A stretch of DNA of 64,000 nt from positions 992,001 through 1,056,000 of the forward strand of contig NZ_JAFIDJ010000001.1 in assembly GCF_017051705.1 (NCBI RefSeq), read 5' to 3'. A program made the translations under genes and the position numbers. Origin of the DNA: Algoriphagus lutimaris. Lineage in GTDB: Bacteria > Bacteroidota > Bacteroidia > Cytophagales > Cyclobacteriaceae. Positions 33,957-58,851 of this stretch are shown one piece after another. Within the stretch, counting starts at the first letter, position 1. Each line of letters opens with the position of its first letter. The notes under the pieces are model-generated. The model searched no databases and was not told where the DNA came from. It saw only the letters and a list, made by a program, of their open reading frames with translations.

Positions 33957-34164
33957 TTATTTTAAGGGTGTTTTCAAAAATAGTGCAACAGGATAAACTC
34001 AAATCCTCAAATAAAGATGCCCAATCCTTAAAAATACTTCAAAATTCTTGGACCTTTCTTAAAATTCTTACTCGCTTAAATGCCATTCTCCCGAATACAT
34101 TTCCATAGGCGGCTTTATTTACGTATTGAATTTCTTTAACTTAAGGTTCAAAAGACATAAATCC

Positions 34165-34620: not shown

Positions 34621-34625
34621 AAATC

Positions 34626-36791
34626 ATGGCTACACTAACAAAAACAACTAGACGGGATTTTCTAAAGATAGCAGGTACTACAGCTGGTGGTTTATTTATA
34701 GGCTTTAACTGGCTGGCTTGCGATTCACCAAAAATGGAAGTCCTCACCGATGAGCAGGTACTTTCCCAAGCCAAAGGCTTTAATGCGTACCTTTCAATTG
34801 CACCAAGTGGAGATATCGTGATTTACTCACCTAACCCAGAGTTAGGGCAAAATATCAAAACATCATTTCCAATGGTGGTGGCAGAGGAACTAGATGCAGA
34901 CTGGAAAAATGTTCGGGTCATGCAAGCAAATCTGGATCAGGAAAAGTATGATCGCCAATTGACTGGTGGATCTGGTGCTATGCCACATTCCTGGGAAAGA
35001 TTGAGAAAAGCAGGTGCTACTGCACGATATTTATTAGTAGCTGCTGCAGCCAAAGAATGGGGAGTTCCGGCTTCTGAAATCACAACTGAGGCTAGTATGA
35101 TCTACCATAAAGGAAGCGGTAAAGAAGCTAGCTATGGAGATATGGCAATCGCCGCATCTGGTTTGGAAGCACCTGAAGAGGTTTCCCTAAAAAATCCAAA
35201 AGACTTCAAAATCATCGGAACTCCAGTTAAAAACGTGGACAACCAAGCCATTTTTACTGGAAAACCACTATACGGGTTAGATTTCTACAGGGAAGGTATG
35301 AAGCATGCAATGATTCAAAGACCTCCTTTTGGAATGAAAATCAAATCAGTAGATGATGCTGCAGCCAAAAACGTAAAAGGCATTTCTGATGTCATGGTCA
35401 TGGAAAATAATGTAGTCCTAATTGGGGATTCTACCTGGCCATTAATGAAAGCTAAAAAGCTTTTGAAAATAGATTATGAGGCAGACGGGCTTGTGGAAAG
35501 TTCCAGTGATCACGATCGTCTTTTCCGGGAGATGTTAGATTCTAACAAAGCGGAAGAAAGAAGGAGGGATGGTAACGTAGCAATGGCCTTTAAAAATGCC
35601 GCAAAGGTGGTTACAGCTGAATACCAATGTCCTTTCCTATCACATTCTCCAATGGAACCCATGAACTTCTTTGCGCATGTGAAGGAGAATTCTGCGGAAC
35701 TAATTGGACCTACACAAACACCAGATAGAGCGGCTTCTGCTGCTGCAGAAATACTTGGCATTCCTAAAGAGAATATTACTGTGGAAATTACTCGCTTGGG
35801 AGGAGGATTTGGTAGAAGGCTTCGAGCAGACTATGTGGAAGAAGCGGTCAAAGTTTCTAAAGCCATCAATGCCCCGGTTAAAGTGACTTGGAGCAGAGAA
35901 GATGATATTACAGGTGGAGCATATAGACCCGCAGTAAGATATCGATTTGAAGCTGCCCTGGATGCCGATGGAAATATGATTGGCTATAAATTAAAAGGAG
36001 CTGGTATCAACGCTGGTAACAGCACACGTCAAAATAATTTTCCTTCTGGAGCAGTAGACAATGTGTTGATTGAAAGTATTGATCATAATTCGCCAATTAC
36101 TACCAATCCTTGGAGAGCTCCAATCACCAACTTCTTGGCTTATGCGGAACAATCTTTTCTTGATGAGGTGGCTTTAGAAGCCAACAGGGATCCTGTGGAA
36201 TTCAGGCTTTCTCTTCTAGAAAAGGCCAAAGCAAGTCCGGTTGGAGGAGAATTGGGATACGATGCGGATCGAATGATTGGAGTGATTAAAACTGCCGCTG
36301 AGAAATCCAATTGGGGGAAAAACCCAAATGTCAGTCAAGGTTTTTCAGTTTACTTCTCTCATAGAACCTATGTTGCGCAGGTAGCGGATATTGAAATGGA
36401 AAATGGATCTCCTGTACTCAAGAAGATCACAGCAGCAACGGATTGTGGGATGGTTATTAACCCAACCGGAGCTAACCATCAAGTAAGAGGTGGAATTGTT
36501 GACGGAATGGGACATGCGATGTATGGTAATCTGACTTTTGAAAACGGACTTCCTACTCAAAAGAACTTTGATAAGTATCGATTGATCAGAATGAAGGAAG
36601 TTCCTCAAATTGATGTGCATTACGTGGACAGTGGGTATGATCCAACTGGTTTAGGTGAACCTGCATTGCCACCGACGGGAGGAGCAGTTGCCAATGCCAT
36701 TTACAAAGCGACCAAAAGAAGATTAAGAAGACAACCATTTATAGAGCAAGAAGAATTCTTTGATCTTAATTTGGAAATCAAACGTGCTTAA
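34626..36791 (+). CDS. Tat-exported molybdopterin large subunit (IorB-like aldehyde dehydrogenase family)
   Basis: A 721-residue molybdenum-hydroxylase large subunit. The N-terminus has a Tat signal (TTRRDFLKIAGTTAGGLFIGF) followed by LACDS, possibly lipid-modified. Mo-cofactor motifs include MPHSWERLRKAGATAR, LSHSPMEPMNFFAH and EITRLGGGFGRRLRADYVEEA. The catalytic Glu lies in GLGEPALPPTGGAVANAIY near the C-terminus. With the small subunit it should oxidise an aldehyde or N-heterocycle in the periplasm. No FAD subunit or cytochrome is adjacent, so its electron acceptor is unknown. Confidence 0.92.
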   Translation: MATLTKTTRRDFLKIAGTTAGGLFIGFNWLACDSPKMEVLTDEQVLSQAKGFNAYLSIAPSGDIVIYSPNPELGQNIKTSFPMVVAEELDADWKNVRVMQANLDQEKYDRQLTGGSGAMPHSWERLRKAGATARYLLVAAAAKEWGVPASEITTEASMIYHKGSGKEASYGDMAIAASGLEAPEEVSLKNPKDFKIIGTPVKNVDNQAIFTGKPLYGLDFYREGMKHAMIQRPPFGMKIKSVDDAAAKNVKGISDVMVMENNVVLIGDSTWPLMKAKKLLKIDYEADGLVESSSDHDRLFREMLDSNKAEERRRDGNVAMAFKNAAKVVTAEYQCPFLSHSPMEPMNFFAHVKENSAELIGPTQTPDRAASAAAEILGIPKENITVEITRLGGGFGRRLRADYVEEAVKVSKAINAPVKVTWSREDDITGGAYRPAVRYRFEAALDADGNMIGYKLKGAGINAGNSTRQNNFPSGAVDNVLIESIDHNSPITTNPWRAPITNFLAYAEQSFLDEVALEANRDPVEFRLSLLEKAKASPVGGELGYDADRMIGVIKTAAEKSNWGKNPNVSQGFSVYFSHRTYVAQVADIEMENGSPVLKKITAATDCGMVINPTGANHQVRGGIVDGMGHAMYGNLTFENGLPTQKNFDKYRLIRMKEVPQIDVHYVDSGYDPTGLGEPALPPTGGAVANAIYKATKRRLRRQPFIEQEEFFDLNLEIKRA

Positions 36792-38515: not shown

Positions 38516-39097
38516 CTACAAATTCAAATCCCTCAAATCCGCCTCAGTGTCAACATCTGTTTTTCCTTTTGGAAAGGGGACAATTTCTAAATCATCCTCA
38601 TGCGCTACTGCTATTTTTTTTGCGCCTTCATCACCGGTTAAAGACATCAATTCATCAAAATATGCCATTCCAAAAAGAATTGGAACACCAAAGGTTTTAG
38701 AATAACCACTGGCAATAATTCCTTTCCCTGTTTTTTCTTGAGTTGCGATAAGTTTATTAATCAACTTTGCATCCACAAAGGGTTGATCACAAAGCATCAC
38801 GATTACTTGATCCACAGGATCTATCTTTTGAAGATATTCCAATCCTCTTATCAAGGTGCTGGACATACCTTCTTTCCAATTTGGATTAGGAATATTAGCG
38901 ATGCTGGCACCAGGAAAAGTCTTTTTAATTTCATCTTTAAAAGCTCCGAGCACCAAGACCTTTTTATCAGCCTTCGAACCATTCGCTGCATCTATTGCAT
39001 ATTGAAGTAGAGTTTTATCCTTGTACCGTGCTATTTGTTTAGGGTAACCTAATCGTGAAGATTCTCCCGCTGCCAATATGATGATCCCTGTTTTCAT
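38516..39097 (-). CDS. mocA: MocA-like molybdenum-cofactor nucleotidyltransferase
   Basis: A 193-residue NTP-transferase. The nucleotide motif is IIILAAGESSRLGYPKQIARYKDKTLL at the N-terminus, followed by a VIVMLCDQPFVDAKLI segment and GVPILFGMAYFDELMSLTGDEGAKKI. This is the layout of MocA/CoxI-associated cytidylyltransferases that convert Mo-molybdopterin to the cytosine-dinucleotide form used by hydroxylases of the xanthine oxidase family. It follows the xdhC-like gene by 2 bases, which supports this reading. Confidence 0.88.
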   Translation of the reverse strand: MKTGIIILAAGESSRLGYPKQIARYKDKTLLQYAIDAANGSKADKKVLVLGAFKDEIKKTFPGASIANIPNPNWKEGMSSTLIRGLEYLQKIDPVDQVIVMLCDQPFVDAKLINKLIATQEKTGKGIIASGYSKTFGVPILFGMAYFDELMSLTGDEGAKKIAVAHEDDLEIVPFPKGKTDVDTEADLRDLNL

Positions 39098-39099
39098 TT

Positions 39100-40218
39100 T
39101 TATGAAAGTTCCTGATGAATAGGCCCTTCTTTTTCTTTAAGAAAAGACCCTGTTTTTCCTACTAAAACCGCTTTGATTTCAGCCAATACAGCTAAAGCAA
39201 TTTCTTCTGATCCTTCGGCTCCTATGTCTAATCCCATGGGAGAATAAAGATGATCTTTCCTTACCGAAACTCCATTGATTTCTAACCTATGGATCATTTT
39301 CTCGGATTTTTTCTTCGGCCCTAAAATACCGATATACGGAATGTCGTAATCCATTAGCTGTTGCAATACTACGCATTCATATTCAAAGTTATGCGTCATT
39401 AATAAGGCAACAGTTTGGGAGTCTATGCTTAATTTCTCAACTGCTTCATTAGCAGGGGCCACCACAATTTCTTTAGCTTTTGGAAATCGGCCATAAGTAG
39501 CTTGATTGGGTCTCCCATCAATCAAAATCACTTCAAACCCTAAAATATCTGCTATCTGTACTAATGGAATGGTATCGTTCCCAGCACCAAAAAGTAATAA
39601 ACGAGTGGCCGGTTTAATTTTTTCAAAAAAGATCTGAATTGAATCATGTTCAGGATAACTTTTTATTAAGCTACTTAACTGGGCTTTATCATTTGCTTGG
39701 CTACTAATCTGATTTAATAAATTGGTTTCTAATTGTTCTAGCTTTCCTATTTGCTGCCCATTTTTATAAAGAAGGATAGTCCCAACCTGTTCAGACTTGG
39801 AATTTTTAATAGAGAATAAGGTAATTAAAGTGCCTACGTTCCTATCTGAAAGTGCTGTTTTCAACAAGTTGACAGAGTTGGAAGCATCTTGATAATCAAT
39901 CGGTTCGATCAAAACATGAATAATACCATTACAACCTAAGCCCACTCCAAATTTTTGATCATCCTCATCCGTGGTATCATAGGTGACCAACATGGATTTT
40001 TGTTGAAAAATTACCGATTGTGCTTTTCTAAGCGCATCTCCTTCCAAACATCCACCGCTGATTGCTCCAGTCAATTCCCCATCTTCTGAAACCAACATCC
40101 TTGCTCCAGGTCTACGGTAGGCAGATCCATCTACATGTACTACTGTTGCCAAAGCAATCTTCTTTTCTAACGTCTGGTAATGGTCATATGCTTGGATAAT
40201 GGCTTGAAGTTCTTTCAT
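39100..40218 (-). CDS. xdhC: XdhC-family molybdenum-enzyme maturation factor
   Basis: A 372-residue protein with the XdhC/CoxI architecture. The N-terminal part has TVVHVDGSAYRRPGARMLVSEDGELTGAISGGCLEGDALRKA. The C-terminal Rossmann fold has RLLLFGAGNDTIPLVQIADILGFEVILIDGRP. XdhC binds the sulfurated Mo cofactor and inserts it into xanthine-dehydrogenase-type enzymes. It starts the xdhC-mocA pair, transcribed towards the cysteine desulfurase gene. Two possible client enzymes lie in this window, at 34.2-36.8 kb and 52.1-56.6 kb. Confidence 0.92.
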   Translation of the reverse strand: MKELQAIIQAYDHYQTLEKKIALATVVHVDGSAYRRPGARMLVSEDGELTGAISGGCLEGDALRKAQSVIFQQKSMLVTYDTTDEDDQKFGVGLGCNGIIHVLIEPIDYQDASNSVNLLKTALSDRNVGTLITLFSIKNSKSEQVGTILLYKNGQQIGKLEQLETNLLNQISSQANDKAQLSSLIKSYPEHDSIQIFFEKIKPATRLLLFGAGNDTIPLVQIADILGFEVILIDGRPNQATYGRFPKAKEIVVAPANEAVEKLSIDSQTVALLMTHNFEYECVVLQQLMDYDIPYIGILGPKKKSEKMIHRLEINGVSVRKDHLYSPMGLDIGAEGSEEIALAVLAEIKAVLVGKTGSFLKEKEGPIHQELS

Positions 40219-45281: not shown

Positions 45282-48200
45282 TTACTTTTTATCTAAACTG
45301 ATTTTCTCAGGTAAGACTTCATTTAACTTTTTGAACTCTCCATTCAGGATTTCATTCAATTTAGATAAATGACCTTCTAATTCACCCGATAGTTCCTCAA
45401 AAACTACATAGGATGCATCAGTTGGTTTAGCCTGACCGGATTCCACACTTCTTTGTAATGAAGCCAAACGATTATTCAATTTGATAGGGAAGTTCAAAGG
45501 ATCCTGACCTGATTGATTTTGTACTTGATAAAGATCTTCTTCAATTACTCTCATTTTCGAAAGCACCTCCTCAATTTGGGCTTTTACTTTAGCATTTGCT
45601 TTCACCTCATTGGCCTGAGCTCTAATATCCCGAATCAAAATAACTGCTTCATTTGCCTCAGACACTTTATCTCTGATCACCATTGCCAAGTCAAATTGTT
45701 CTTGAATATCTGCTGCTGTTACCCCCTCAAGATTTGGATCCATCTCCAATTTAAAGGAGGTATTTTTCTCCACATCACCAGTTTTCAAGGTAACATTATA
45801 CTCTCCAATAGGAGCCATAGGGCCTCTCTGTGGACGAGCAGACCAAATGATCATTCCATCAAATACCGTTGCACCTGGATACCGCATATTCCATGTAAAG
45901 GTATTTAGTCCTTCTTTTAATCCTGGGTTACTTCTACCTTCTTTTTCTTTGGTTCCAGTATACGTATTGATTAAATTCCCCTCTGCGTCTTTAATTTCGA
46001 TGGTTACAGACTCAGCTTCTTCTGGTAAATAATATTGAATGGCTGCATCGTATACACCTCGAATAGGATTGGCTGGTTTGAATAAAGCCACTTCATTTTT
46101 AGCACTAACCTCAACAGCTTCCCTCAAAGGTCTAATATCATCCAAGATCCAGAACCCGCGGCCATGAGAACCCAACACCACATCGTCATTTTTCAAGACA
46201 AGATCTCGAATTGGAGTATCCGGCAAATTCAATTGCAGAGATTGCCATTTTGCTCCATCATTAAATGATACATACACACCATGCTCAGTAGCCAAATACA
46301 ATAGACCCGGCTTTTCTAAATCCTCACGGATGGCTCTGGCGAAATGTCCATCTTCAATTCCATCGATAATTTTAGTCCAAGTCTTTCCATAATCCGAGGT
46401 TTTGAACACATAAGGCTGTCTATCATCTACCTGATATCTATTTGCCGCTAAATACAAGGTGCCTGGCTGGAATTTACCTTCATCGATGATACTGATCCTT
46501 GAAAACTTAGGCAATTCTGTGGGGGTAATATCCACCCAGTTTTTACCTCCATCTTGGGTAATATGAACTTTTCCATCATCAGACCCTGCCCAAATCGTGT
46601 TGACATCATGCATGGATGGGGCTAAAGCAAATACAGTAGCATAGATCTCTGGACCATTCATATCCATGGTAATTACACCGCCCGTTTTACCTAAAGTCTC
46701 AGGATCTGCATAGGTTAAATCCGGACTGATCTTCTCCCAAGTTTGGCCATCATTGGTGGTTTTCCAAACATGCTGAGATGTGGTGTACATGATCGATGGA
46801 TCCAATGGAGAAAACATGATTGGGAAAGTCCACTGCCATCTTTCCGGAAGAGCAGAAGCTGGTTCGCCCGAGAAGAATCTAGGATACACTTGAATATCTC
46901 TGTATTGGCCGGTTTTTCTGTTATATCGTGTCAATAGTGCTCCTTGGGAACCTGCATAAAAGACGTCTGGATCAGTTGGGCTTTGAGTAATCCATCCACT
47001 TTCTCCTCCACCAACAGCATAATGATAACCGTGGCCTGGACCTCTTCCTAACATATGATTCCAGCCTTCAGAAGGCATTGCCAAAGTACTGTTGTCCTGC
47101 TGTGCTCCAGCTACATGATAAGGAACATCAGAAGTGGTCATAACATGGTAAAATTGGGAGGTAGGATAATCTTCCTCTGTCCAAGTTTTACCGCCATTGA
47201 TACTTACTACCCCTCCACCATCATTGGAGCTAATCATACGCATTGGATCATTTGGATCAATCCACAAATCATGATTATCACCATGAGGAACGGTTATTTC
47301 CACATCAAATGTTTCCCCTCCGTCTGTAGACTTCCAAAAATCAACATTCAATCCATACACTGTATTCTTGTCAATAGGATCAGCATAGATTCTAGAATAG
47401 TAAAAAGCTCTTTGTCTTAATTTTCGTTCATCATTTACCTTCTTCCAAGTCTGACCGGCATCATCAGAGCGGAATACTCCTCCTTCATTTGCTTCCACTA
47501 TTGCCCATACGCGATTAGGATCAGCAGGGGATACAGTAACTCCAATCTTTCCAATTGGACCTTCTGGCATTCCTGGGTTCGAAGTCAAATCGATCCAGGT
47601 ATCTCCACCATCCGTTGATTTCCATAGTTTGGAGTCAGGTCCACCCCCCCACATTTTCCAGGCTTTTCTATATACCTGCCAGGTAGAAGCATATAATACA
47701 TCAGGATTCGTCCGGTCAATTATTAAATCTGCGGCACCTGCCTTATCACTTACATAAAGGACTTTTTCCCAATTGTTTCCTCCATCTGTAGAACGAAATA
47801 CACCTCTTTCCTCATTTTCGCCATAGGGATGACCCAATGCAGCCACATAAACAATATCGGGGTTGGTAGGATGAACTCTAATTCTTGAAATAGCCTGAGT
47901 TTCTTTTAAACCTAAATGCCTCCAGGTCTCTCCTCCGTCAGTGGTTTTGTAAACTCCGTCACCTTGTGTGATACTTCCTCTTAACTGAGTTTCTCCTCCG
48001 CCTATGTAAACAACATCGGGATTAGTTTCAGCCACTGCTACCGCACCTATACTGGAAGAAGAAATTTTCCCATCGGTGACAGGAAACCATTCATTTCCAC
48101 CGTCTACGGTTTTCCATAATCCTCCTCCTGTAGCTCCGAAATAATATTCATTTTTTCTTCCTGGACTTCCAGAGGCTCCTAAAGATCTTCCTCCACGGTT

Positions 48201-48344
48201 TGGACCAATATTCCGCCAGCTATAGCTACTATAAAAAGAGGGATCTACCACAGTTGATTGATCTTGCGCGAATACTTCATAATCGGTAAACGCTAATCCA
48301 AGGCATACCATGAACACCCGGATTGTTTGGTAATTGTATTTCAT
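45282..48344 (-). CDS. Secreted BNR/sortilin-like multi-repeat beta-propeller protein
   Basis: A 1020-residue exported protein. The ATG at 48344 gives MKYNYQTIRVFMVCLGLAFTDYEVFAQ as signal peptide. At least ten Asp-box (BNR) motifs of the type STDGGNNWEKV, KTTDGGETWRHL, RSDDAGQTWKKV and TQDGGKNWVDI are visible between about residues 50 and 730. That makes one or two large propellers like VPS10/sortilin and xyloglucanase-type proteins. After HGRGFWILDDIRPL comes a C-terminal beta and coiled region ending in Lys. Annotated relatives are called glycosyl hydrolases, but no catalytic acids are evident to me, so a binding or scaffolding role is equally possible. Confidence 0.9.
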   Translation of the reverse strand: MKYNYQTIRVFMVCLGLAFTDYEVFAQDQSTVVDPSFYSSYSWRNIGPNRGGRSLGASGSPGRKNEYYFGATGGGLWKTVDGGNEWFPVTDGKISSSSIGAVAVAETNPDVVYIGGGETQLRGSITQGDGVYKTTDGGETWRHLGLKETQAISRIRVHPTNPDIVYVAALGHPYGENEERGVFRSTDGGNNWEKVLYVSDKAGAADLIIDRTNPDVLYASTWQVYRKAWKMWGGGPDSKLWKSTDGGDTWIDLTSNPGMPEGPIGKIGVTVSPADPNRVWAIVEANEGGVFRSDDAGQTWKKVNDERKLRQRAFYYSRIYADPIDKNTVYGLNVDFWKSTDGGETFDVEITVPHGDNHDLWIDPNDPMRMISSNDGGGVVSINGGKTWTEEDYPTSQFYHVMTTSDVPYHVAGAQQDNSTLAMPSEGWNHMLGRGPGHGYHYAVGGGESGWITQSPTDPDVFYAGSQGALLTRYNRKTGQYRDIQVYPRFFSGEPASALPERWQWTFPIMFSPLDPSIMYTTSQHVWKTTNDGQTWEKISPDLTYADPETLGKTGGVITMDMNGPEIYATVFALAPSMHDVNTIWAGSDDGKVHITQDGGKNWVDITPTELPKFSRISIIDEGKFQPGTLYLAANRYQVDDRQPYVFKTSDYGKTWTKIIDGIEDGHFARAIREDLEKPGLLYLATEHGVYVSFNDGAKWQSLQLNLPDTPIRDLVLKNDDVVLGSHGRGFWILDDIRPLREAVEVSAKNEVALFKPANPIRGVYDAAIQYYLPEEAESVTIEIKDAEGNLINTYTGTKEKEGRSNPGLKEGLNTFTWNMRYPGATVFDGMIIWSARPQRGPMAPIGEYNVTLKTGDVEKNTSFKLEMDPNLEGVTAADIQEQFDLAMVIRDKVSEANEAVILIRDIRAQANEVKANAKVKAQIEEVLSKMRVIEEDLYQVQNQSGQDPLNFPIKLNNRLASLQRSVESGQAKPTDASYVVFEELSGELEGHLSKLNEILNGEFKKLNEVLPEKISLDKK

Positions 48345-49062
48345 AAAGGTTGATGGTTTTGTCAAAATTAAAGTACAAAAAGTTAGAGTAAGCTCTGAAT
48401 AGACTTTTTTGGACGGTTACTAGGGTGTGCTCAGAAGCAAAGAGAAGTAACTTAAAAAATCATTACGCACAAATCAAAAGAAAAGGGGAAGAAATAGCCT
48501 CCAACTATTATAAAGGTTAAATCTCAACATAAAATTCAAGTAAATAAATAATCATACACCATAAATTAAACTATTCCAAAGCTTATCTTGTTACTTAACT
48601 GTAATCACCTGCAATATGATGGTTATGAAATAAATGAGTTAATAGAAATTCGTGAAAACCAGGTCTAGGTTAGGTCTGGTTTTTTTATTGATCTAATCCT
48701 TTTTTCTTAAAACGTTTAAGGTGTATTAATAATTAAATTCTGTCTTTTTATAGAAGCTTAAAAACCTTTATTTTAAAAATTGATTTTTTTTCAACTATTT
48801 TTTTCAAAGATAAACTTATCGATCAAACACCTTCCTTGACACTTAAATTTTCGTTCAAAAACACCAAAAACCTGTTCATATAAACTAAAAAGAATTTAAA
48901 TCAGGAGAGCAATTTTTTAAGTACAGAAAAAAATCAATTTAGCATTTCACAATCTAGAATTTGATTCAGGAGTAATGGTTAAAACCTTAAGATTTAAGGA
49001 TTTAAAATTTTATATTGAAGTATACTTTTCAATTTTTTTTTACCCCTTAACCAAATTTTATA
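48345..49062. other. 718-base intergenic region with an orphan terminator
   Basis: No intact gene is visible. A clear plus-strand terminator lies at 48655-48687 (arms AAAACCAG / CTGGTTTT, then a run of T), yet the gene to its left runs the other way. Just before it, a 32-codon open stretch ending TAG (about 48570-48668) has no ATG and could be a C-terminal gene remnant, or the region may specify a small RNA. The remaining part up to 49062 is very AT-rich and probably holds the promoter for the following operon. Confidence 0.5.
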
Positions 49063-50493
49063 ATGCAAATCATCGATTTTAGAAAAAGGGGAAAAGTCTG
49101 GATTGGCTTTTCCTTACTGCTATTTATTATCCAATCTTGTTCGGTCACTACCAATTCAAATTCAGAAGAAGAGAAAGCTACCAAAACTGTCAAAAACAAT
49201 TTTCCAGACTTTGGAAAGATGCTTAGTCCTGAGGAGTTTCTCACACAATACCCAGGAGAAAAAGTATTTGAGTTGAGTCAAGATTACCCTTTAACCAAGC
49301 CAGATGAATCCCGGCTTCCGGAGTTCCTTAATATTCCATTTGATGAAGACGAACATTGGATGGAATACATTAACGCTGTAAGGGATTATTCCTTTGAAGG
49401 GATGATCGACGTGGACTTTGTTGCTCAAAAGAGTAAAGTTAGAAATTGGTACCATATGCCATGGATGCATTGGGGGCCACAAGGTTCGGAAGGCTTTCAT
49501 GGATTGGCTAAAGAAGCTGAAATTGGTCCTTATCAATTGGGCCCGAATCAAACAGAATCGCATCAAACCTATGCCTTGGGTTTTTACAATGAATTTGCAG
49601 GGTACACTTTAGCCCAAATGTGGAAAGATGGAGATAATCCGAACCCTTATGCCACGCAAGAGCCCAATGGCTTCCCTGTAGGCACAGTCATTTTTAAACT
49701 ACTCTTTACAGATGCAGATGAAACAGATGCAGATTATTTGGTGAATCCCATGACTTGGAATGCCTATATCACACCAACCTGGAATAATGGGTTGGACACT
49801 GGTAGAATTGTCAAGAAAATGCATTTAATCCAAATGGATGTAATGGTTAGAGATCCGAGAGCAGATCAGTATGGTACAGGTTGGGTCTTTGGGACCTTCT
49901 GCTACAACGGAAAGCTAAATAATGGAAAAGAAGGCTCCATGCGAGCTGAAAACTTAGTTCCTGTTGGAATACAGTTTGGAAATGACCCTCAGGATACAAC
50001 CAATTTCATCAATCCATATCCCGTCAAGCGAACCGTTATAAACCCCAATTTAAAGCAAACCAAGATCAATCCTGATTCCACCCAGTTGCCTCCACAGCAT
50101 TTGGGTTGGGGAGGGAGATTAGATGGTCCTGTGGATTTAAATAATTCTTCCTGCATGTCTTGTCATGCTACGGCTGAATTCCCTCAAGTAGCTCCATTGG
50201 TTCCAAAAGAAGCATTTATTGGAGATACCAATGCCATGGGACAATTGACAAAACTAACGGAAACACAAGCGGAAGCATTCAGAAAATATTTTCAAAATTT
50301 AAAATGTGCCACTCCTTATACTGACAATGCCACCTCTTGTGATTTCTCCCTTCAGGTTTCACTAGCCCTAGGATATTTCACGGAATGGAAAGATGAAGAT
50401 GTAGCAGGTTATTGGACCAGTGAATACGAACGATTACCGGTGATGATGAACCGTGATGGATCCCCAAAAGTAGAGCCAAATACACCCCAATAA
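49063..50493 (+). CDS. CxxCH (c-type heme) lipoprotein
   Basis: A 476-residue envelope lipoprotein; the signal ends IIQSC with the lipidated Cys26. The long central part is rich in Trp, Tyr and Asn (RNWYHMPWMHWGPQGSEG; PMTWNAYITPTWNNGLDTG) with no family I can name. One heme-attachment motif CMSCH lies at residues 364-368, and three further cysteines follow in the last third. It should reside in the periplasm and carry a single c-type heme. It begins a three-gene unit with a phosphoesterase and a single-chain molybdenum hydroxylase, 2 bases before the former. Confidence 0.75.
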   Translation: MQIIDFRKRGKVWIGFSLLLFIIQSCSVTTNSNSEEEKATKTVKNNFPDFGKMLSPEEFLTQYPGEKVFELSQDYPLTKPDESRLPEFLNIPFDEDEHWMEYINAVRDYSFEGMIDVDFVAQKSKVRNWYHMPWMHWGPQGSEGFHGLAKEAEIGPYQLGPNQTESHQTYALGFYNEFAGYTLAQMWKDGDNPNPYATQEPNGFPVGTVIFKLLFTDADETDADYLVNPMTWNAYITPTWNNGLDTGRIVKKMHLIQMDVMVRDPRADQYGTGWVFGTFCYNGKLNNGKEGSMRAENLVPVGIQFGNDPQDTTNFINPYPVKRTVINPNLKQTKINPDSTQLPPQHLGWGGRLDGPVDLNNSSCMSCHATAEFPQVAPLVPKEAFIGDTNAMGQLTKLTETQAEAFRKYFQNLKCATPYTDNATSCDFSLQVSLALGYFTEWKDEDVAGYWTSEYERLPVMMNRDGSPKVEPNTPQ

Positions 50494-50495
50494 TC

Positions 50496-52049
50496 ATGAG
50501 CCAATATTTAGAAGAGCAAAAAGAAAGATTACAGAATAACATCAATCATATCGTGGTATTGATGCTGGAGAATAGATCTTTCGACAACTTATTGGGTTGG
50601 CTGTATGATGACGAAAAGCCCTGTAATAATCAGAAATTTGAAGGATTGAACTATGGCCTTTGGAACCCATTGGATAATATAGATTCTGATGGTATTCCAT
50701 TTATTGAAAAAGTGGGAGTAGAGCAGAATGGAGAGAAAAAATATAAATACGGAAGAGAGGTAGATAATCCAGAAAATTTTTGTCTTCCAGACCCAGACCC
50801 AGGAGAAGGTTTTAAGGACACCAATTATCAATTATTTAGCTACTACAATGTGGCTGAAAATTACACTCCATCCCCCATTAATATGGGCTTCGTGCAAAAT
50901 TACCAAAATGCCATGATGTACGGAGCATTCAGCTTTGGTGATCAACCCACCAACCCGAGAGATATTATGAAGTGTTACACACCTGCTCAGACACCGGTTC
51001 TATCTGGACTGGCCAAAGGTTTTGCAGTTTGTGATCAATACCATTGTTCTGTACCTAGTCAAACTTTACCTAACCGAAGTTTTGTCCATGCTGCCACTTC
51101 AGGAGGAAATGTCAATAATTCACCAAATGCTTTTTGTGATCAAAAAACCATTTACAATCAGATCCAAGATGCTATTGACAGCCAAAAGCGAACCGATTTA
51201 AGTTGGGGTATTTTTGGAAATAACTTAATGCCCTCCTCAGAGCGAAAGAAAGATTCAGATGCTGCAGGAGAGTTTGAAAGGGATTACTTTTCCTTAACCA
51301 GACTCTGTATGACGGAATTACATGATTCAAAATTCGATTCTAATTTTGGGACATTGGATCAATTTATCCAGAAATGTCAGGAGGGTAATCTTCCAAGTTA
51401 CTCATTTTTAGAGCCTACCTATGGAGGAGTTAATCAAAATGATCAACATCCACCAAATGATATTCGACCTGGGGAGCAATTAATTGCTGACGTCTACAAT
51501 GCAATCAAAAATTCCAAGGTATTTGATTCCACACTTCTGATTATTACCTATGATGAACATGGGGGTTGTTATGATCATGTAGCTCCTCCTGCCCAAGCCA
51601 AAAATCCTGATCCTAATAATACACCAGGGCAAGATGGTTTTCTTTTTAACCGATTTGGTGTGAGAGTTCCTTGCGTTCTAATAAACCCTTACATATCACA
51701 AGGGCTTATTGCTAGACCCAGTGGCTATATACCTTATGACCATACCTCTATAATCAAAACAGTTCAGGAATGCTTCCAATTAGAGGGAAACTTGACGGAA
51801 CGTGATAAAGTAGCACCAAGCTTATCAGGTGTCTTGACGCTTTCAAAGGCAAGAACTAATTTTCCTGATGTAACTCCTCTGGCCTGGAATACAAAAGTGG
51901 ACGAATCTCATGTGAATGATTTGCATAGAACCATGGCCAAAATAGTGAATGACTTGAGTGGTATCCCCCAAGAAGAAAAGGAAAGTACGCTCACTTACCT
52001 TCAGAAAAATTTTAAGAAACTTTTTATCACAAGACCGGCAAGATCTTAG
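50496..52049 (+). CDS. Phospholipase C / AcpA-like phosphoesterase
   Basis: A 517-residue member of the phosphoesterase family that includes phospholipase C and acid phosphatase A. HIVVLMLENRSFDNLLGW carries the first metal ligand. CSVPSQTLPNRSFVHAATSGG carries the nucleophile region, and FDSTLLIITYDEHGGCYDHVAPP the second metal-binding block. PYDHTSIIKTVQECF is typical of the C-terminus. There is no signal peptide or Tat motif, unlike most family members, so it may act in the cytoplasm. It lies between the heme lipoprotein and the fused molybdenum hydroxylase, with a 35-base gap to the latter. Confidence 0.9.
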   Translation: MSQYLEEQKERLQNNINHIVVLMLENRSFDNLLGWLYDDEKPCNNQKFEGLNYGLWNPLDNIDSDGIPFIEKVGVEQNGEKKYKYGREVDNPENFCLPDPDPGEGFKDTNYQLFSYYNVAENYTPSPINMGFVQNYQNAMMYGAFSFGDQPTNPRDIMKCYTPAQTPVLSGLAKGFAVCDQYHCSVPSQTLPNRSFVHAATSGGNVNNSPNAFCDQKTIYNQIQDAIDSQKRTDLSWGIFGNNLMPSSERKKDSDAAGEFERDYFSLTRLCMTELHDSKFDSNFGTLDQFIQKCQEGNLPSYSFLEPTYGGVNQNDQHPPNDIRPGEQLIADVYNAIKNSKVFDSTLLIITYDEHGGCYDHVAPPAQAKNPDPNNTPGQDGFLFNRFGVRVPCVLINPYISQGLIARPSGYIPYDHTSIIKTVQECFQLEGNLTERDKVAPSLSGVLTLSKARTNFPDVTPLAWNTKVDESHVNDLHRTMAKIVNDLSGIPQEEKESTLTYLQKNFKKLFITRPARS

Positions 52050-52084
52050 TAACAGCTAGGGCTTCCTTTTTAACATTAAATACC

Positions 52085-55000
52085 ATGAACAATAGCGTTT
52101 CATTTTTCCTCAATGGAGAAGAAGTCACCATTACCAACCCAAAACCTGAATTACTCTTATTAGATTACTTACGATCCAATGAAGTAGGACTTACAGGTGC
52201 AAAAAAAGGATGTGGCCAGGGCGGTTGTGGTGCTTGTACAGTCATTTTATCTACCTGGAATGAAAAAAAACAGGTTGCTGAACACAAGTCAATAAATTCA
52301 TGCCTAAGGCCAGTTTGCGCCTTGGGAGGGATGGCTATCACAACAATTGAAGGTACGGGAGGAATCAAAAGGCCAGAGAACAAACATTTGACTTTCACGC
52401 CCTCCTCATCAAGGGGAGCGTCTAATTTTGCAGTTACACCTCCTCCTGCATGGAATAGAAAAAAAGCAGATTTACTGCAGTCCACATCATCGAGAACTGA
52501 TCAGGTAACTCAGCGGTTGGTAGCAATTTCAACTAATTCCATCTCATCCAAATGCCTATCTGAACAAGAAAATCAAGATTTACATGAAGGAATTAATCCA
52601 GTAGCCCACCGCTTAGCAATCAACAATGGAACTCAATGTGGGTATTGTACTGTGGGATTTGTCATGAATATGTCGGCATTTTTATCAGAAAATCCCTCAC
52701 CAACAAAACAGGAAATTGAATCAATTTTCGATGGGAATATTTGTCGATGTACAGGCTACAAATCCATACTCACTGGAATGAAAACTTTTGCCTCTGATTG
52801 GAATGCTGAGGATGAAGCCCATAGAATGAAGTGCTTAACTGAAGATAAATGTCAACAAGTGCTTGTTCATGATTCCATTAATATCCCGTTTCCAAAAGCT
52901 GCAAAAATGGCTTTGCCCCCCATATCTATTTTAAACTCTAGGCAAAAATGGTTTAGCCCAGAGACCTTGGATGAGTTAAAGATTATTCTTAGAAAAAACC
53001 CTCCGGATACCACAAGGATCGTTTTCGGAAATACTTCTTTTGGGGTTTACGCAGAGGAATTTCCGCAATTTAAATTATTCGTTGACATCAAATTAATTCC
53101 TGATCTATTTGGGATTAACAAGACTGAAAAAGGACTTGAAATAGGAGCTTCTACAACTTACTCGGAATTACTAGCCTACTTGGACCAACTTATCAAAAAA
53201 GAGGATTTAGCTTCAACTTCTAGAATAGGAGCTATTCAATATATGGTCCATAGAACAGCTGGGATGATCGTTAGAAATGCGGCATCCATTGCTGGTAATA
53301 CCATGCTTGAATTAAAGCATATCTTCACTGGAGCACCTTTTCCATCTGATTTATTTACAACTCTCTTTGGAACAAATTCTGAAATCAGAATTCTAAAGGT
53401 GAAGTCAGGAAAAGAATCTCAAATCAAGATTTCTACGTTGATTCAGAAGGTATTAAAAGCTCCTGAAATGGTGCATGACCTAATTATCCTGGGATATTTC
53501 ATTCCTTTTGGAAACTCCAATGAGGTGGTGTTATCCCAAAAAGTTGCTTTGAGAGAGGTAAATTCCCATTCTATCGTAAACAATTGCTCAAGGATAGAAC
53601 TTGACCAGAATTTAAAAGTAAAAGAAGCCTCTATCGTATTTGCTGGAATTGCACCCTTGGCATGGAACGCCTCCAAATCAGAACAATGGTTGAAAGGCAA
53701 GACCATAAGTTTGGACCTTTTACCCAAGTTGACCGATATCCTAAGAATAGAAGTTCAAAAGGAGTTAAGTTATTGGGAGAATCAAGGAAGATATGACTCC
53801 ATTCCTTCCGAGGGTTTTACCGATGAGTACAAAACCAACTTAGCAATTTCATTTCTATACAAAGCAATAATCAGAACCTTATTAGAAAAATCAAAAAAGG
53901 CGGTACCACCACACCTTTTATCAGCAGGAGATATTAATTGGGGAAACTGGGGTTTAAGTAATGGAACCCAATCATATGAAATTCAGGACTTTAAAAAACC
54001 TCTTTCTCAACCATACATCAAGTTAATGGCTTTTCATCAAGCCATGGGGCAAGTACATTATACGCATGAGATTCCGCTACCTCCTGTGGGTAAGAATGCT
54101 GCATTTATTCAATCCAAAAAATCCCTTGCCAATTATCATTTTATAAACCCTGACTCGAAAGAGAATATTAATGAAGAAGTTTTGGAACGTATTCTCAGGG
54201 ATAAGTTTCCTTCCTTTTTTAAGCTGATCAATTCAAAGGATATCCCTGTTGGAGGAATGAACCTGCAGGGGATGGCTTTTGATCAACCTGTTTTTGCTAC
54301 AGATAACATTCTTTATCCTGGACAAGCCATTGCCATGGTCATCGCACAAACAGAGCAAGATGCCATTGAAATCGCAGAATATGCCTCATCTAATTGTGTA
54401 GGTTATTCTCCCATTATCTGGCAAAATGAAGGGAATAAACAATGGGATAAAAGTTGGGAAGAACCCATTGTTTCTATTGAGGACGCCATTAAAAAAGGCA
54501 GCATTTTTCCAGATTGCCCAAGTACAGCCTCCTTCGTTTCTCATATATGGAAAATCACCAGACCCGGTACGGAGCTGTACTGGGTAAATCTGAACAGGGA
54601 CCCTTTGGATAAAACTCCAAATTTAAGGAAAGAGAAAATAGATGGGGCTTCCTGCCTGGTGGTAGAAAACACCCAGATTTCGGGAGAGCAAGTCCATTTT
54701 TATATGGAAACTCAAGCCTGCGTAGCATTTCCGGAAGATGATGACCAAATCTTAGTCCATCCCTCTTCCCAAAGTCCCATGGAAATGCACCAAACAGTCG
54801 CAAGTACCTTGGCTGCAGAGCATAATAAAGTGAACGTGGACATCCGACAATTAGGAGGGGGGTATGGAGGAAAGACTGAGCAAGCAAAATTTGTTGCTGC
54901 TCCGGTAGCAGTAGCAGCCCATGCTTTGAATAGACCAATCCGACTGGCAATGAAGCGGGAACATGATACCGCGATGATAGGAAAGCGTCATGGATATTAT

Positions 55001-56647
55001 GGTCAGTACCAAATTGCTATAGATCAAGGCAAATTACGGGAAGAGGACCGAGGGATCATCAGAGGCTTACATCTGAAGATCTGGGCGGACGGAGGAGCAT
55101 TTTATGATTGTTCCTATATCGTATCCAACTGTGTTCAGTTACGAATTGACAATGCCTACAAGGTCAAAAATTTCGAAAGTCAATTAGATGTATGTAGAAC
55201 CAATAAAGCTCCTAATACAGCCATGAGAGCCTTTGGAGATATACAAGGCAAACTCATTTTAGAAAATGCGATTGATGATGGTGCATTCTCTATCGGAATG
55301 GATCCTGTGGAATTTAGAAGGAAAAACATGTATGTAAGGGGCGATGTAACCCCTTTTGGACAGGCCCTTTCCTATTGCTACATGCGGGATGTCTGGAAAT
55401 ATGTGGAAGAAAAAAGCAATTACCGGGAAAAGCTCCAAGAAGTGGATGCATTCAATAAAGCCAATAAATGGAAAAAAAGAGGAGTGTATATGATTCCGGT
55501 AAAATACGGTTCCGGTTATAATCTGGTCATGATCGAGCAGGCAGCAGCAATTGTTTCGGTGTATTCTGGGGATGGAAGTGTTTCAATCAATCAAGGAGGA
55601 GTAGATATGGGGCAGGGCATGATGACCAAAGTTGAACAAGTTGCCGCATACGTGTTGAATATTCCTATGGAGTTAATTCAAATTCACAGTCCCACTACCA
55701 AAAGCATTCCCAATCCCACAAGCACCGGAGGTTCTACCGGAACTGCCTATAATGGAGAAGCAGTGAAGCAGGCTTGTGAGAAAATGCGAAGTAGAATTAC
55801 CGAATTTGGCTTCAAGCTCTTAAAAGACCATGGAGAAGAATGGTGTAAAGAACAGGGAATTGACTTTTGGAATCATGGCTCAGCAGGTTGGTCTGCTTCC
55901 ATAAAAAGACCCATCGATCAACATCCTAAATTAATTTGGCAAAACCTGGTCGCATTGGCCTATCAATATCGAGTAGATTTAATAGCATCATTTACAGCAC
56001 CGATTCCTGGAGGAACCACTCCAATTCCTGCCATGACCTTCAAACCAAACAGTGAAAACAAGGCGATCCCAGGAATTGATTTAGCCAAGGTACCAAGTAC
56101 AGCTGGGGTGGTGGACTCCTTTGTAGGATTTACATTTTCTGCAGCATGCTCGGAAGTAGAGGTAGATATTCTCACTGGAGAGGTAAAGATTTTAAAATCT
56201 GATATTGTTTTTGATATGGGATGGAGTTTAAACCCTGCCATTGACATAGGTCAGGTAGAAGGAGCATTTGTCCAAGGAGTGGGATATGTATTGACAGAAA
56301 AATTGGTCTTTGAACCTAAAGGAGAGGAAAAAGGAAGGTTGAATACCTTAAACACTTGGACCTATAAGCCACCGGCGATCACTACCATCCCCTTGGAAAT
56401 GAATACTTATTTATATCCAAGATCCAACTCTTCAGAAGTGCCTGAAAACCCTAATGGGCTTTTTTCATCCAAAGAAGTAGGGGAGCCTCCTTTGGTTTTG
56501 GCCACCAGTGTATTCTTTGCCATAAAATCAGCCATTCGAGCTTCTAGATTGGAACGAGGTCTGTCTGGGTATTTTAAATTAGATGCCCCAGCCACAGTTC
56601 AGGAAGTAAGTAGGGTATTGGAAGTAAAGAAGCAGGATTTTAAATAA
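52085..56647 (+). CDS. Single-chain xanthine-dehydrogenase-like molybdenum hydroxylase
   Basis: A 1520-residue fusion of all three functional parts. Residues 1-235 hold two [2Fe-2S] sites: Cys43, 48, 51 and 73, then Cys185, 188, 220 and 222. Residues about 283-590 form the FAD domain with RNAASIAGNTML. From about 640 the Mo domain follows, with ETQACVAFP, QLGGGYGGKTEQAKF, NKAPNTAMRAFG, GGVDMGQGMMTK and catalytic Glu1467 in EVGEPPLVLA. By alignment to bovine XDH from memory, Glu802 is Thr931 and Arg880 is Cys1016, so xanthine is unlikely to be the natural substrate. Residues about 92-170 are an insertion. No export signal is present. Confidence 0.93.
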   Translation: MNNSVSFFLNGEEVTITNPKPELLLLDYLRSNEVGLTGAKKGCGQGGCGACTVILSTWNEKKQVAEHKSINSCLRPVCALGGMAITTIEGTGGIKRPENKHLTFTPSSSRGASNFAVTPPPAWNRKKADLLQSTSSRTDQVTQRLVAISTNSISSKCLSEQENQDLHEGINPVAHRLAINNGTQCGYCTVGFVMNMSAFLSENPSPTKQEIESIFDGNICRCTGYKSILTGMKTFASDWNAEDEAHRMKCLTEDKCQQVLVHDSINIPFPKAAKMALPPISILNSRQKWFSPETLDELKIILRKNPPDTTRIVFGNTSFGVYAEEFPQFKLFVDIKLIPDLFGINKTEKGLEIGASTTYSELLAYLDQLIKKEDLASTSRIGAIQYMVHRTAGMIVRNAASIAGNTMLELKHIFTGAPFPSDLFTTLFGTNSEIRILKVKSGKESQIKISTLIQKVLKAPEMVHDLIILGYFIPFGNSNEVVLSQKVALREVNSHSIVNNCSRIELDQNLKVKEASIVFAGIAPLAWNASKSEQWLKGKTISLDLLPKLTDILRIEVQKELSYWENQGRYDSIPSEGFTDEYKTNLAISFLYKAIIRTLLEKSKKAVPPHLLSAGDINWGNWGLSNGTQSYEIQDFKKPLSQPYIKLMAFHQAMGQVHYTHEIPLPPVGKNAAFIQSKKSLANYHFINPDSKENINEEVLERILRDKFPSFFKLINSKDIPVGGMNLQGMAFDQPVFATDNILYPGQAIAMVIAQTEQDAIEIAEYASSNCVGYSPIIWQNEGNKQWDKSWEEPIVSIEDAIKKGSIFPDCPSTASFVSHIWKITRPGTELYWVNLNRDPLDKTPNLRKEKIDGASCLVVENTQISGEQVHFYMETQACVAFPEDDDQILVHPSSQSPMEMHQTVASTLAAEHNKVNVDIRQLGGGYGGKTEQAKFVAAPVAVAAHALNRPIRLAMKREHDTAMIGKRHGYYGQYQIAIDQGKLREEDRGIIRGLHLKIWADGGAFYDCSYIVSNCVQLRIDNAYKVKNFESQLDVCRTNKAPNTAMRAFGDIQGKLILENAIDDGAFSIGMDPVEFRRKNMYVRGDVTPFGQALSYCYMRDVWKYVEEKSNYREKLQEVDAFNKANKWKKRGVYMIPVKYGSGYNLVMIEQAAAIVSVYSGDGSVSINQGGVDMGQGMMTKVEQVAAYVLNIPMELIQIHSPTTKSIPNPTSTGGSTGTAYNGEAVKQACEKMRSRITEFGFKLLKDHGEEWCKEQGIDFWNHGSAGWSASIKRPIDQHPKLIWQNLVALAYQYRVDLIASFTAPIPGGTTPIPAMTFKPNSENKAIPGIDLAKVPSTAGVVDSFVGFTFSAACSEVEVDILTGEVKILKSDIVFDMGWSLNPAIDIGQVEGAFVQGVGYVLTEKLVFEPKGEEKGRLNTLNTWTYKPPAITTIPLEMNTYLYPRSNSSEVPENPNGLFSSKEVGEPPLVLATSVFFAIKSAIRASRLERGLSGYFKLDAPATVQEVSRVLEVKKQDFK
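52370..52580 (+). repeat. In-frame low-complexity insertion in the iron-sulfur region, possible repeat-derived
   Basis: About 70 codons separate IEGTGG from INPVAHRLAI, where homologues have roughly 10-15 residues. The inserted part is rich in Ser, Thr, Pro and Gln. Its DNA includes CCCTCCTC, AAGGGGAG and CTCCTCC blocks that look like a degenerate interspersed palindrome. Other copies in the genome would be needed to call it a repeat. Confidence 0.3.
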
Positions 56648-56669
56648 AATCTTTCCAAATCAACTCAAG

Positions 56670-56703
56670 ACCTCAATAGTGTAGTGCTGTTGAGGTTTTT
56701 TTG
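56670..56703 (+). terminator. Rho-independent terminator
   Basis: A 7-base stem ACCTCAA / TTGAGGT with a 13-base loop and a run of T, about 25 bases after the stop of the fused molybdenum hydroxylase. It closes the three-gene unit. Confidence 0.85.
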
Positions 56704-56826
56704 CATCTGAAATCTTACAAATCGAAAAGGACTTTCTTAAAGTTTGTATTTTTTCTTTATATAAAAGGAAATTGCATCCTGCTCATTTTCAGCTAAATTT
56801 CTTGACTTAAAAAGACCGCCAACCTT

Positions 56827-58851
56827 ATGAAAAAAATCTTATACGCTTCTCTGGCTCTTCTAGCAGCTTGTACCACTAGTCCTGACATGAAAGAGGAGCA
56901 AGTTCGAGAGCATTTTATCAAAGTAGATGAAATCAATTCTGCCATTCGTCCGGGGGATAATTTCTTCATGCATGTCAATGGAACTTGGTATGATACCGTC
57001 AAAATTGCTGATGATCAAGTAGGAGTGGGGTCCTATTCCTTTTTAAATATTCCCAAAAAACAATTATTGGAGAATATTTTAACTGAAGTATCAAAAGAAG
57101 AGCATCCCAAGGGGAGTATTGAACAGAAAGTAGGGGACTTTTACGCCTCTGGAATGGATACAGCAGCCATTAATGCGAGAGGCTATGAACCCATTATTCC
57201 CATTTTAGAGCAAATTGAGGCCATCAGTAGCCTTTCCGACTTACACCAATTTGTATCTTCTGAATTGAAGTCAAATAATCAAACCCTGATTGGGTTAAGA
57301 ATATCTCCTGATGATGAAAACAGTATCGTCAACATTGTTCATTTAAGCCAAACAGGTATAGGCTTACCTGACAGGGATTACTACTTCAATACTGATTCCT
57401 CTACCATTGGTATTCAAAAGGCATATCAAAATTACTTGGCTACCCTATTTCAATTGACTGGTAGTTCAGAAACTGAGGCTACTAACGCCGCTGAAAAGAC
57501 TTATGAGATAGAAAAATCATTGGCAGAATCCCACAAGACTAGAATCCAGCGCAGAGTTGTAAAAGAAAACTACCATAAGTTGGCTGTAGATGTAATTGAA
57601 ACAGAACACGAGAACATTGGTCTAAAAGCTATTCTAACGGAGTTAGGTCTTCCTGCAGATTCTGTAGACGTTAGGCAACCTGCATATTACGATCGGTTAA
57701 ACGGCATGCTTGCCTCAGTTCCACTGGAAGATTGGAAAACATACCTGAAATCTAGCACTTTGGTTAACTATGCAGATATCTTAAGCACCCCTTTCGAAAA
57801 TGCAGCTTTTGAGTATTCGAAGGTTGTTTCTGGGCAGTCCACTCAATTGACACGAGCACAACAAATGGTACAGAAAGTGGATAGACAGTTAGGTTTTGAC
57901 TTGGGACAATTATATGTCAAAAGATACTTCAATGAAGATGCAAAACAACGTGTTTTAACGCTTGTCAATAACCTCCAAAAGGCATTCGAAAATAGAATCA
58001 ATAAGCTGGATTGGATGAGTGACAGTACTAAAACTCAAGCAAAAGAGAAGTTGTATTCCATTACCAAAAAGATAGGTTATCCTGATGAATGGAGAGAATA
58101 CAACGTCTCCATCGACAAGAACAAATACTTTGAAAACGTCATAGCCCTTAGAAAAGACGAAAGTCAATATCAGTTGGCTAAATTCGGAAAAGCCCCAAAT
58201 AGAGCCGAGTGGGGAACTACCCCAAGTACTGTTACAGCTTATTATAACCCCTCTTTAAACGAGATTGTCTTTCCAGCGGGAATTCTTCAATACCCTTATT
58301 TTGACTTCTATGCGGATGATGCTGTGAACTATGGAGGAATAGGGATGGTAATAGGACATGAATTGACTCATGCTTTTGATGATCAAGGTTCTCAGTTTGA
58401 TAAAGATGGAAATGTGAAAAATTGGTGGACTTCAGAAGACTATGAAAAATTCAAAGCCAAAACACAGCAATTGATCGACCGTTATGACACGTATACAGTA
58501 TTAGATTCTGTCCACATCAAGGGAGCCATGACCATTGGAGAAAATACAGCAGACAATGGAGGGATCTACATCGCTTACGATGCATTTAAACTCACAAAAC
58601 AAGGACAGGACACTACCAAGATAGATGGGTATACCCCAGATCAACGTTTCTGTCTATCTATTGCCAATATTTGGAGAGTGAAAGTGAGGGATGAGTATAT
58701 GAGAACCTATGTGAATACCAATTCCCACTCCCCAGCAATGTGGAGAGTCAATGGTCCTCTAATGAATTTTGAACCATTCTATCAAGCTTTTGACATTCTA
58801 CCAGAGGACAAAAACTTTAAACCTGAAGAGCAACGGATTAAAATCTGGTAG
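56827..58851 (+). CDS. M13 (neprilysin-like) peptidase lipoprotein
   Basis: A 674-residue zinc endopeptidase. The N-terminus MKKILYASLALLAACTTS is a lipoprotein signal with Cys at residue 15. The M13 zinc site is VIGHELTHAFDDQGSQFDKDG (HELTH at 511-515), and the second Glu is in ENTADNGGI. The upstream NAYYNP-equivalent is TVTAYYNPSLNEIVFPAGIL. The C-terminus ends with KIW, close to the usual CxW-type end. It should degrade small peptides at the cell envelope. It has its own terminator at 58885 and looks monocistronic. Confidence 0.94.
   Translation: MKKILYASLALLAACTTSPDMKEEQVREHFIKVDEINSAIRPGDNFFMHVNGTWYDTVKIADDQVGVGSYSFLNIPKKQLLENILTEVSKEEHPKGSIEQKVGDFYASGMDTAAINARGYEPIIPILEQIEAISSLSDLHQFVSSELKSNNQTLIGLRISPDDENSIVNIVHLSQTGIGLPDRDYYFNTDSSTIGIQKAYQNYLATLFQLTGSSETEATNAAEKTYEIEKSLAESHKTRIQRRVVKENYHKLAVDVIETEHENIGLKAILTELGLPADSVDVRQPAYYDRLNGMLASVPLEDWKTYLKSSTLVNYADILSTPFENAAFEYSKVVSGQSTQLTRAQQMVQKVDRQLGFDLGQLYVKRYFNEDAKQRVLTLVNNLQKAFENRINKLDWMSDSTKTQAKEKLYSITKKIGYPDEWREYNVSIDKNKYFENVIALRKDESQYQLAKFGKAPNRAEWGTTPSTVTAYYNPSLNEIVFPAGILQYPYFDFYADDAVNYGGIGMVIGHELTHAFDDQGSQFDKDGNVKNWWTSEDYEKFKAKTQQLIDRYDTYTVLDSVHIKGAMTIGENTADNGGIYIAYDAFKLTKQGQDTTKIDGYTPDQRFCLSIANIWRVKVRDEYMRTYVNTNSHSPAMWRVNGPLMNFEPFYQAFDILPEDKNFKPEEQRIKIW

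Follow-up and report, generated by a model that had tools for sequence, protein, structure and literature searches.

We describe here a three-gene unit on a 64,000-nucleotide (nt) stretch of the Algoriphagus lutimaris genome (GCF_017051705.1, NZ_JAFIDJ010000001.1:992,001-1,056,000), referred to as the window, whose positions serve as coordinates throughout. Sampled genomes are designated G### and loci L###, with G000 denoting the genome that holds the window. The unit is composed of three genes, termed P1 to P3, which encode a putative P460-type heme lipoprotein, a phosphoesterase and a molybdenum hydroxylase of the xanthine dehydrogenase (XDH) family:

49063..50493, plus strand: P1, open reading frame (ORF) of 476 aa; lipoprotein with a lipobox-like Cys26, resembling heme c proteins of the P460/c'-beta type
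50496..52049, plus strand: P2, ORF of 517 aa; PF04185 phosphoesterase (phospholipase C / acid phosphatase superfamily), no export signal seen
52085..56647, plus strand: P3, ORF of 1520 aa; single-chain XDH-family molybdenum hydroxylase

All three ORFs lie on the same strand, with gaps of 2 bases between P1 and P2 and 35 bases between P2 and P3, in agreement with a preliminary description of this locus. The unit is flanked by two further genes:

45282-48365, divergent from P1: sortilin-like gene, 5' neighbour of the trio
56827-58851: M13 peptidase gene, 3' neighbour of the trio

The trio behaves as a cassette, as shown by a trio-free site in G001, a genome of the same genus, where only 242 bp separate the sortilin gene (93% identity) from the M13 gene (79%) and the interval contains no ORF of at least 90 aa. 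In G018 and G374, the trio is located between the same two neighbours as in the window, and in G030 and G026 (G026 being of the same genus as the window genome) other genes separate the sortilin-like gene from the trio. The P1-P3 pair is found elsewhere in G397 and G364, 4-6 kb from homologues of the XdhC and MobA-like genes of the window. Base composition gives no mark of recent acquisition for the trio; the G+C content at third codon positions of P1, P2 and P3 (36.7, 32.4 and 35.6, respectively, against a mean of 32.1 with sd 2.5 for 41 ORFs) is not decisive.

Matches to P3 at E <= 1e-100 were present in 10 of 391 family genomes, nine with at least 58% identity and one (G328) with 32%, and in 4 of the 296 genomes of the phylum draw, namely the window genome, G444, G613 and G617. 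Together with A. aestuariicola (L029) and a Methylobacterium indicum plasmid (L070), and leaving out G328 with its different pocket, these matches comprise 14 P3 loci, where loci on the same contigs (L027/G030, L028/G026, L030/G364 and L031/G276) are counted once. At 13 of the 14 loci, P1 is a neighbour of P3 in the same orientation, directly in seven and with only P2 in between in six, and precedes P3 in ten but follows it in three (G613, G617 and G444). The exception is G338, which has no P1 at E <= 1e-10 and carries P2 and P3 on different contigs. The preliminary description had treated the three genes as one unit and had held that rare adjacency of their homologues would speak against it; adjacency is the rule for P1 and P3, whereas P2 is present in only half of the P3 loci (seven of 14), located between P1 and P3 in six and two genes past P1 in G613. 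Thus, the notion of genes travelling together holds, but a fixed three-gene set is ruled out by the seven loci that lack P2, which argue for a two-gene core of P1 and P3 with P2 as an accessory.

Within the family draw, the 10 genomes with a P3 match include all 8 genomes with a P2 match as well as the 8 genomes with a close P1; in six further genomes, P1 relatives reach just 29-31% identity and no P3 is listed. At E <= 1e-100, P2 was found in 2 of the 296 genomes of the phylum draw, the window genome and G613. The family draws of 391 for P1, P2 and P3 had the same size and shared handles and were compared through the genomes listed, and the genomes in the overlaps are related, such that the co-occurrences do not represent independent events. 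In G613, P2 is 71% identical to its counterpart in the window, compared to 55% for P3 and 46% for P1, which suggests that P2 may have joined that P1-P3 pair in a separate event. One alternative is that genes of independent use have simply moved together and share no common pathway, as might be proposed from the optional nature of P2, the separate contigs in G338 and the P1 relatives that are found alone. We consider this unlikely, given that the P1-P3 neighbourhood persists through a reversal of gene order and down to identities of 45% (P3) and 32% (P1), and that the genes are closely spaced.

The N-terminus of P1 has a signal-peptide-like start ending in IIQSC26, as judged by eye, and a single CMSCH motif spans residues 364-368, consistent with the CxxCH lipoprotein noted earlier. 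The position of this motif towards the C-terminus is as in the P460/c'-beta superfamily, and the closest fold matches of the predicted P1 model are cytochromes P460/c'-beta, albeit with modest scores. Residue conservation was assessed in 22 distinct sequences (alignments A4 and A5, including the P1 of the window). K212 of P1 aligns with the heme-crosslinking Lys78 of Methylococcus P460 (McP460) and D259 with the distal carboxylate Asp102 (Asp102/Glu96), and both are present in all 22 sequences, as are N176 (the equivalent of N55), W274 and the Cys, Cys and His of the CXXCH motif. In addition, the spacing of P205-x-G207-x4-K212 matches that of P71, G73 and K78 in McP460, and that of Q257-x-D259 matches Q100-x-D102, with Q257, G207 and P205 kept in 21, 20 and 14 of the 22 sequences, respectively. 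On the Pfam profile PF16694, the K212-type lysine falls at positions 48-51 and the D259-type aspartate at 68-76 (ungapped ends assumed), as read from six of seven stretches, L033 being excluded because its stretch starts after the lysine.

Conserved positions have been described for P460: Gly73, Lys78 and Lys115 are among five residues conserved in all 144 aligned P460 sequences, Arg50, Asn55 and Pro71 are conserved within the McP460 group, and Gln100 and Asp102 reside in the McP460 pocket (PMC6427953). Moreover, P460 is defined by the lysine crosslink, and its activity is tied to the distal carboxylate (PMC11928373). P1 thus looks like a P460-type heme protein, related to McP460 and NeP460 but with an open pocket and carried on a lipoprotein, and a lysine-heme crosslink is predicted from the residue. 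The host range of the P1 family differs, however, encompassing Bacteroidota and others here, compared to a wide range of proteobacteria reported in a review (PMC11928373).

Several observations weigh against the P460 assignment, which we regard as supported but not proven. P1 scores 23.5 bits against PF16694, short of the gathering cut-off of 27, and none of the 10 homologues scanned reaches 27 bits either (top score, 26.3); likewise, sequence searches with P1 against solved structures returned no P460 match. At 476 aa, P1 has net insertions relative to the matched chains of 135-161 aa. The counterpart of Lys115, T272 by ungapped spacing from D259 rather than by a true alignment, is Thr, Asn, Gln or Phe in all 22 sequences and never Lys. 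Position 171, which corresponds to Arg50 by spacing from N176, is Ala in 19 sequences and Val, Gly and Ser in one each, whereas a distal capping Arg or Phe is present in 6 of 6 tabulated members (PMC11928373). Finally, the fold searches leave P460 and c'-beta undistinguished, and a domain-only model (pLDDT 63.1, compared to 67.8 at full length) gave no higher fold scores. In a PF16694 search of three genomes, P1 was the sole match in both G000 and G018, and the P1 of G613 went undetected; this search is therefore no proof that other P460-like proteins are absent.

The ambiguity between P460 and c'-beta is relevant for a second alternative, namely that the unit is a stress module in which P1 would bind NO or peroxide in the manner of c'-beta and P3 would make or remove reactive nitrogen or oxygen species. 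The fold includes c'-beta, for which a gas-binding role is proposed, and a crosslink-free member with peroxidase-like activity (PMC11928373). By contrast, three tabulated c'-beta members have Met/Phe and Ala/Gly at the lysine and carboxylate positions (PMC11928373), where all 22 P1 sequences retain K212 and D259, which makes this alternative quite improbable.

Homologues of P1 are also found apart from P3. Among 28 plasmid records, six regions were examined: the Methylobacterium region has P3 beside P1, and the other five (Variovorax, two Rhizobium, Agrobacterium and Sinorhizobium) have no P3 listed in their incomplete gene table. At seven further P1 loci (L032-L038, 42-48% identity), no P3 or P2 match was seen in the five with long flanks; L032 and L034 lie on contigs of ~5 kb, too short to judge. 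The genome scan for P1 employed two peptide patterns and covered 15 of 157 stretches, and was not exhaustive. Three contigs of a viral collection carry P1 homologues (L097:7992-9350, 42%; L098:7986-9344, 41%; L099:7857-9281, 39%), adjoined in L097 by dUTPase and dCMP-deaminase genes (PHROGs) and in L098 by similar genes, as judged by eye, with neighbours in L099 that are not viral-looking; phages may carry a P1-type heme protein. In Roseivirga spongicola (L054:7169-8389, G276), P1 is interrupted by a frame break close to the N-terminus, with its initial part in another frame, due to either assembly error or decay. On a plasmid of Variovorax sp. RA8 (L071:6152-11802), an S41 peptidase and an amidohydrolase flank the P1 homologue; then comes a protein that carries a GQDPYP motif and matches uracil-DNA-glycosylase below threshold. 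On two Rhizobiaceae plasmids (L072:7842-10850 and L073:7812-10984), P1 is followed by similar proteins of ~530 aa that have no Pfam match and look like SARP-type regulators.

P2 scores 237.8 bits against PF04185 (cut-off 23), in line with the phospholipase C (PLC)-like phosphoesterase described previously. The top match among solved structures is plant NPC4 (8hav; E 1e-48, residues 99-461 aligned), where T190 of P2, within QTLPNR, aligns with the STQPNR of NPC4. The threonine of this T-x-PNR motif is the nucleophile. While P2 shares its family score and the T-x-PNR motif with PF04185 phosphoesterases such as NPC4, bacterial phosphatidylcholine (PC)-specific PLC and acid phosphatases, it misses the NCBIfam cut-offs for PC-specific PLC (TIGR03396; 113.2 versus 580.25) and for the Burkholderia-type acid phosphatase (TIGR03397; 80.7 versus 362.75), and no export signal is seen. 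Indeed, Tat export was rejected for both enzymes, since the first 40 residues contain no RR motif in 8 of 8 P2 and 14 of 14 P3 sequences, and neither P2 nor P3 of the window has a hydrophobic leader (by eye). The discrepancy in location that had been pointed out between these enzymes and the lipoprotein start of P1 is therefore real.

P3 comprises two [2Fe-2S] domains, FAD domains and molybdenum cofactor (MoCo) domains within one chain, with seven Pfam families above cut-off, as expected from the earlier designation as a single-chain molybdenum hydroxylase, and begins almost at once with the ferredoxin domain. The domain order is that of single-chain XDH/aldehyde oxidase, and all eight [2Fe-2S] cysteines, E1467 (the equivalent of the catalytic Glu1261) and the Gln767 equivalent are kept in 14 of 14 P3 proteins. 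The pocket, as read off a HMMER alignment with rat XDH, is distinct: Glu802 is replaced by T931, Arg880 by C1016, Phe1009 by Y1145 and Thr1010 by N1146, a pattern found in all 14 proteins, and Phe914 is kept as F1050 (Phe in 13, Met in Methylobacterium). Of these, we take Phe914, Phe1009 and Thr1010 to be substrate-pocket positions in XDH. Glu802 and Arg880 hydrogen-bond the purine-like ligand oxipurinol (PMC4334109). The XDH-type comparison proteins L012 and L013 have E/R/F/T at the replaced positions. In addition, 12 of the 13 Bacteroidota P3 proteins have ~70 extra residues between the two [2Fe-2S] domains, a stretch that G338 has in shortened form and that is absent from the Methylobacterium P3 and the G328 protein. 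P3 also misses the NCBIfam equivalog cut-offs for xdhA (255.1 versus 467) and xdhB (495.6 versus 849.5), as well as that for mam_aldehyde_ox (590.7 versus 1912.3). By these tests, an ordinary xanthine dehydrogenase is ruled out, and P3 marks a recognisable non-xanthine clade that might be mistaken for one. The protein of G328 (L056:4460-9067) is a remote single-chain XDH-family member, 32% identical to P3; its pocket reads Q/L/F/Y/T, and the stretch examined around it holds no P1.

The genes around P1 and P3 at other loci bear on a third alternative, in which a DNase II or phospholipase D (PLD)-type nuclease and a P2-type phosphatase would release a purine for oxidation by P3, with P1 serving in stress. 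L057 has P3, P1, DNase II, P2 and, as the last gene, XdhC in a run on one strand, and P1 adjoins a DNase II-family gene in L034. The Methylobacterium plasmid has P1, P3, a second CxxCH protein, a metallophosphoesterase, a PLD-like protein, a phosphoglycerate-mutase family protein and DUF2278. Phosphate-ester hydrolases without a signal peptide (by eye) recur beside P1 in these loci, but not at every P1 locus, and a DNase II is encoded outside the window in its own genome, one of the 2 with such a gene among 97 sampled genomes. Nevertheless, the locus of the window is devoid of DNase II, the purine-holding Glu802 and Arg880 are Thr and Cys in every P3, and the XDH cut-offs are missed, which renders such a salvage route improbable. 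The DNase II gene of the window genome (G000:C1:132487-133488, L102) lies in a run with a gene for an 1803-aa protein.

That P1 is a c-type electron carrier taking electrons from P3, akin to the remote electron acceptor suggested previously, appears very unlikely: some other molybdenum hydroxylases do pass electrons to cytochromes c, P1 accompanies P3 at 13 loci, and a second CxxCH protein follows P3 in Methylobacterium, but the best matches of P1 are ligand-binding P460/c'-beta hemes rather than carriers, and P3 possesses a FAD domain of its own and lacks an RR export motif. Among tabulated wild-type P460/c'-beta hemes, potentials range from -205 to -424 mV, with P460 itself at -340 to -424 mV (PMC11928373), which, together with the flavin of P3 and the opposite membrane sides expected, makes P1 an improbable acceptor. 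On the fold and pocket results, we have therefore downgraded this role.

Instead, we tentatively favour, at somewhat less than even chances, a horizontally moving oxidation cassette in which a periplasmic P460-type heme protein (P1), a cytoplasmic non-xanthine hydroxylase (P3) and an optional phosphoesterase (P2) act on one compound. P1, anchored in the membrane and facing the periplasm, keeps the lysine and the carboxylate typical of active P460 oxidases and has no capping residue, and would thus accept an N-O substrate that is hydroxylamine-like or larger. P3 would hydroxylate an N-heterocycle other than xanthine, or an aldehyde, in the cytoplasm, and P2, where present, may cleave a phosphate ester to free the substrate. 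P1 and P3 would then work on opposite sides of the membrane, each on its own form of the compound, in succession or in parallel, with no electron transfer between them. We infer the substrate class, the order of steps and the compartments of P1 and P3 from these features; the substrate is probably nitrogen-containing, and the sequence of dephosphorylation followed by oxidation put forward in the preliminary description is possible. A bolder version, which we consider rather unlikely, is that P1 represents a large membrane-anchored P460 class beyond nitrifiers and methanotrophs that oxidises organic hydroxylamines or N-hydroxylated heterocycles in its open pocket, with P3 hydroxylating the same ring in the cytosol, and that this P460-molybdenum pathway for N-oxygenated compounds has been carried across phyla by plasmids and chromosomal cassettes.

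The hydroxylamine-oxidising P460s covered by a review come from one ammonia-oxidising and one methanotrophic organism, in which the reaction gives NO or N2O (PMC11928373), and passages of a heterotrophic-nitrification paper list P460 with the enzymes that oxidise hydroxylamine and mention no molybdenum partner (PMC11440038). Within the open-access literature, we found no paper combining cytochrome P460 with xanthine dehydrogenase and no described system joining the parts, as had been surmised for the three genes. The components belong to known superfamilies, but neither their pairing nor the family of large P460-like lipoproteins nor the pocket clade of P3 appears to have been described there. 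If true, a P460-like family in heterotrophic Bacteroidota that is tied to one molybdenum hydroxylase clade would widen the biology and chemistry of the P460 heme, and the conserved partner P3 would provide a concrete handle for finding the substrate of P1.

The flanking signals and a further pair of genes in the window are as follows:

48366..49062, no strand: leader between the sortilin-like gene and P1, AT-rich (26.1% G+C over 697 bp)
56667..56699, plus strand: terminator-like hairpin with a 14-bp stem, 5-nt loop and T run (-18.1 kcal/mol, z -3.46)
38516..40218, minus strand: MobA-like NTP transferase and XdhC genes, 9 kb away, possibly for P3 maturation

The region before P1 had been described as AT-rich and promoter-like; the AT-richness is evident, but the 18 promoter-like sites found in 48366-56900 do not exceed chance (shuffle mean 22.5). 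The TAnnTTTG motif is missing upstream of P1 in the window and, counting the window, in 9 of the 11 loci checked, and the full TTG...TAnnTTTG pair is missing in all 11. The terminator reported after P3 is borne out by the hairpin, which a consensus scan for signals (48366-56900) did not list. In L052 and L053, homologues of the XdhC and MobA-like proteins (65-77% identical) are encoded at distances of 4.3 and 5.6 kb from P1, and a role of the window's copies in P3 maturation is possible. The window genome has seven MoCoBD_1 matches, and another molybdenum hydroxylase, of the common split type with separate [2Fe-2S] and MoCo subunits, is encoded at 34126-36791 on the plus strand.

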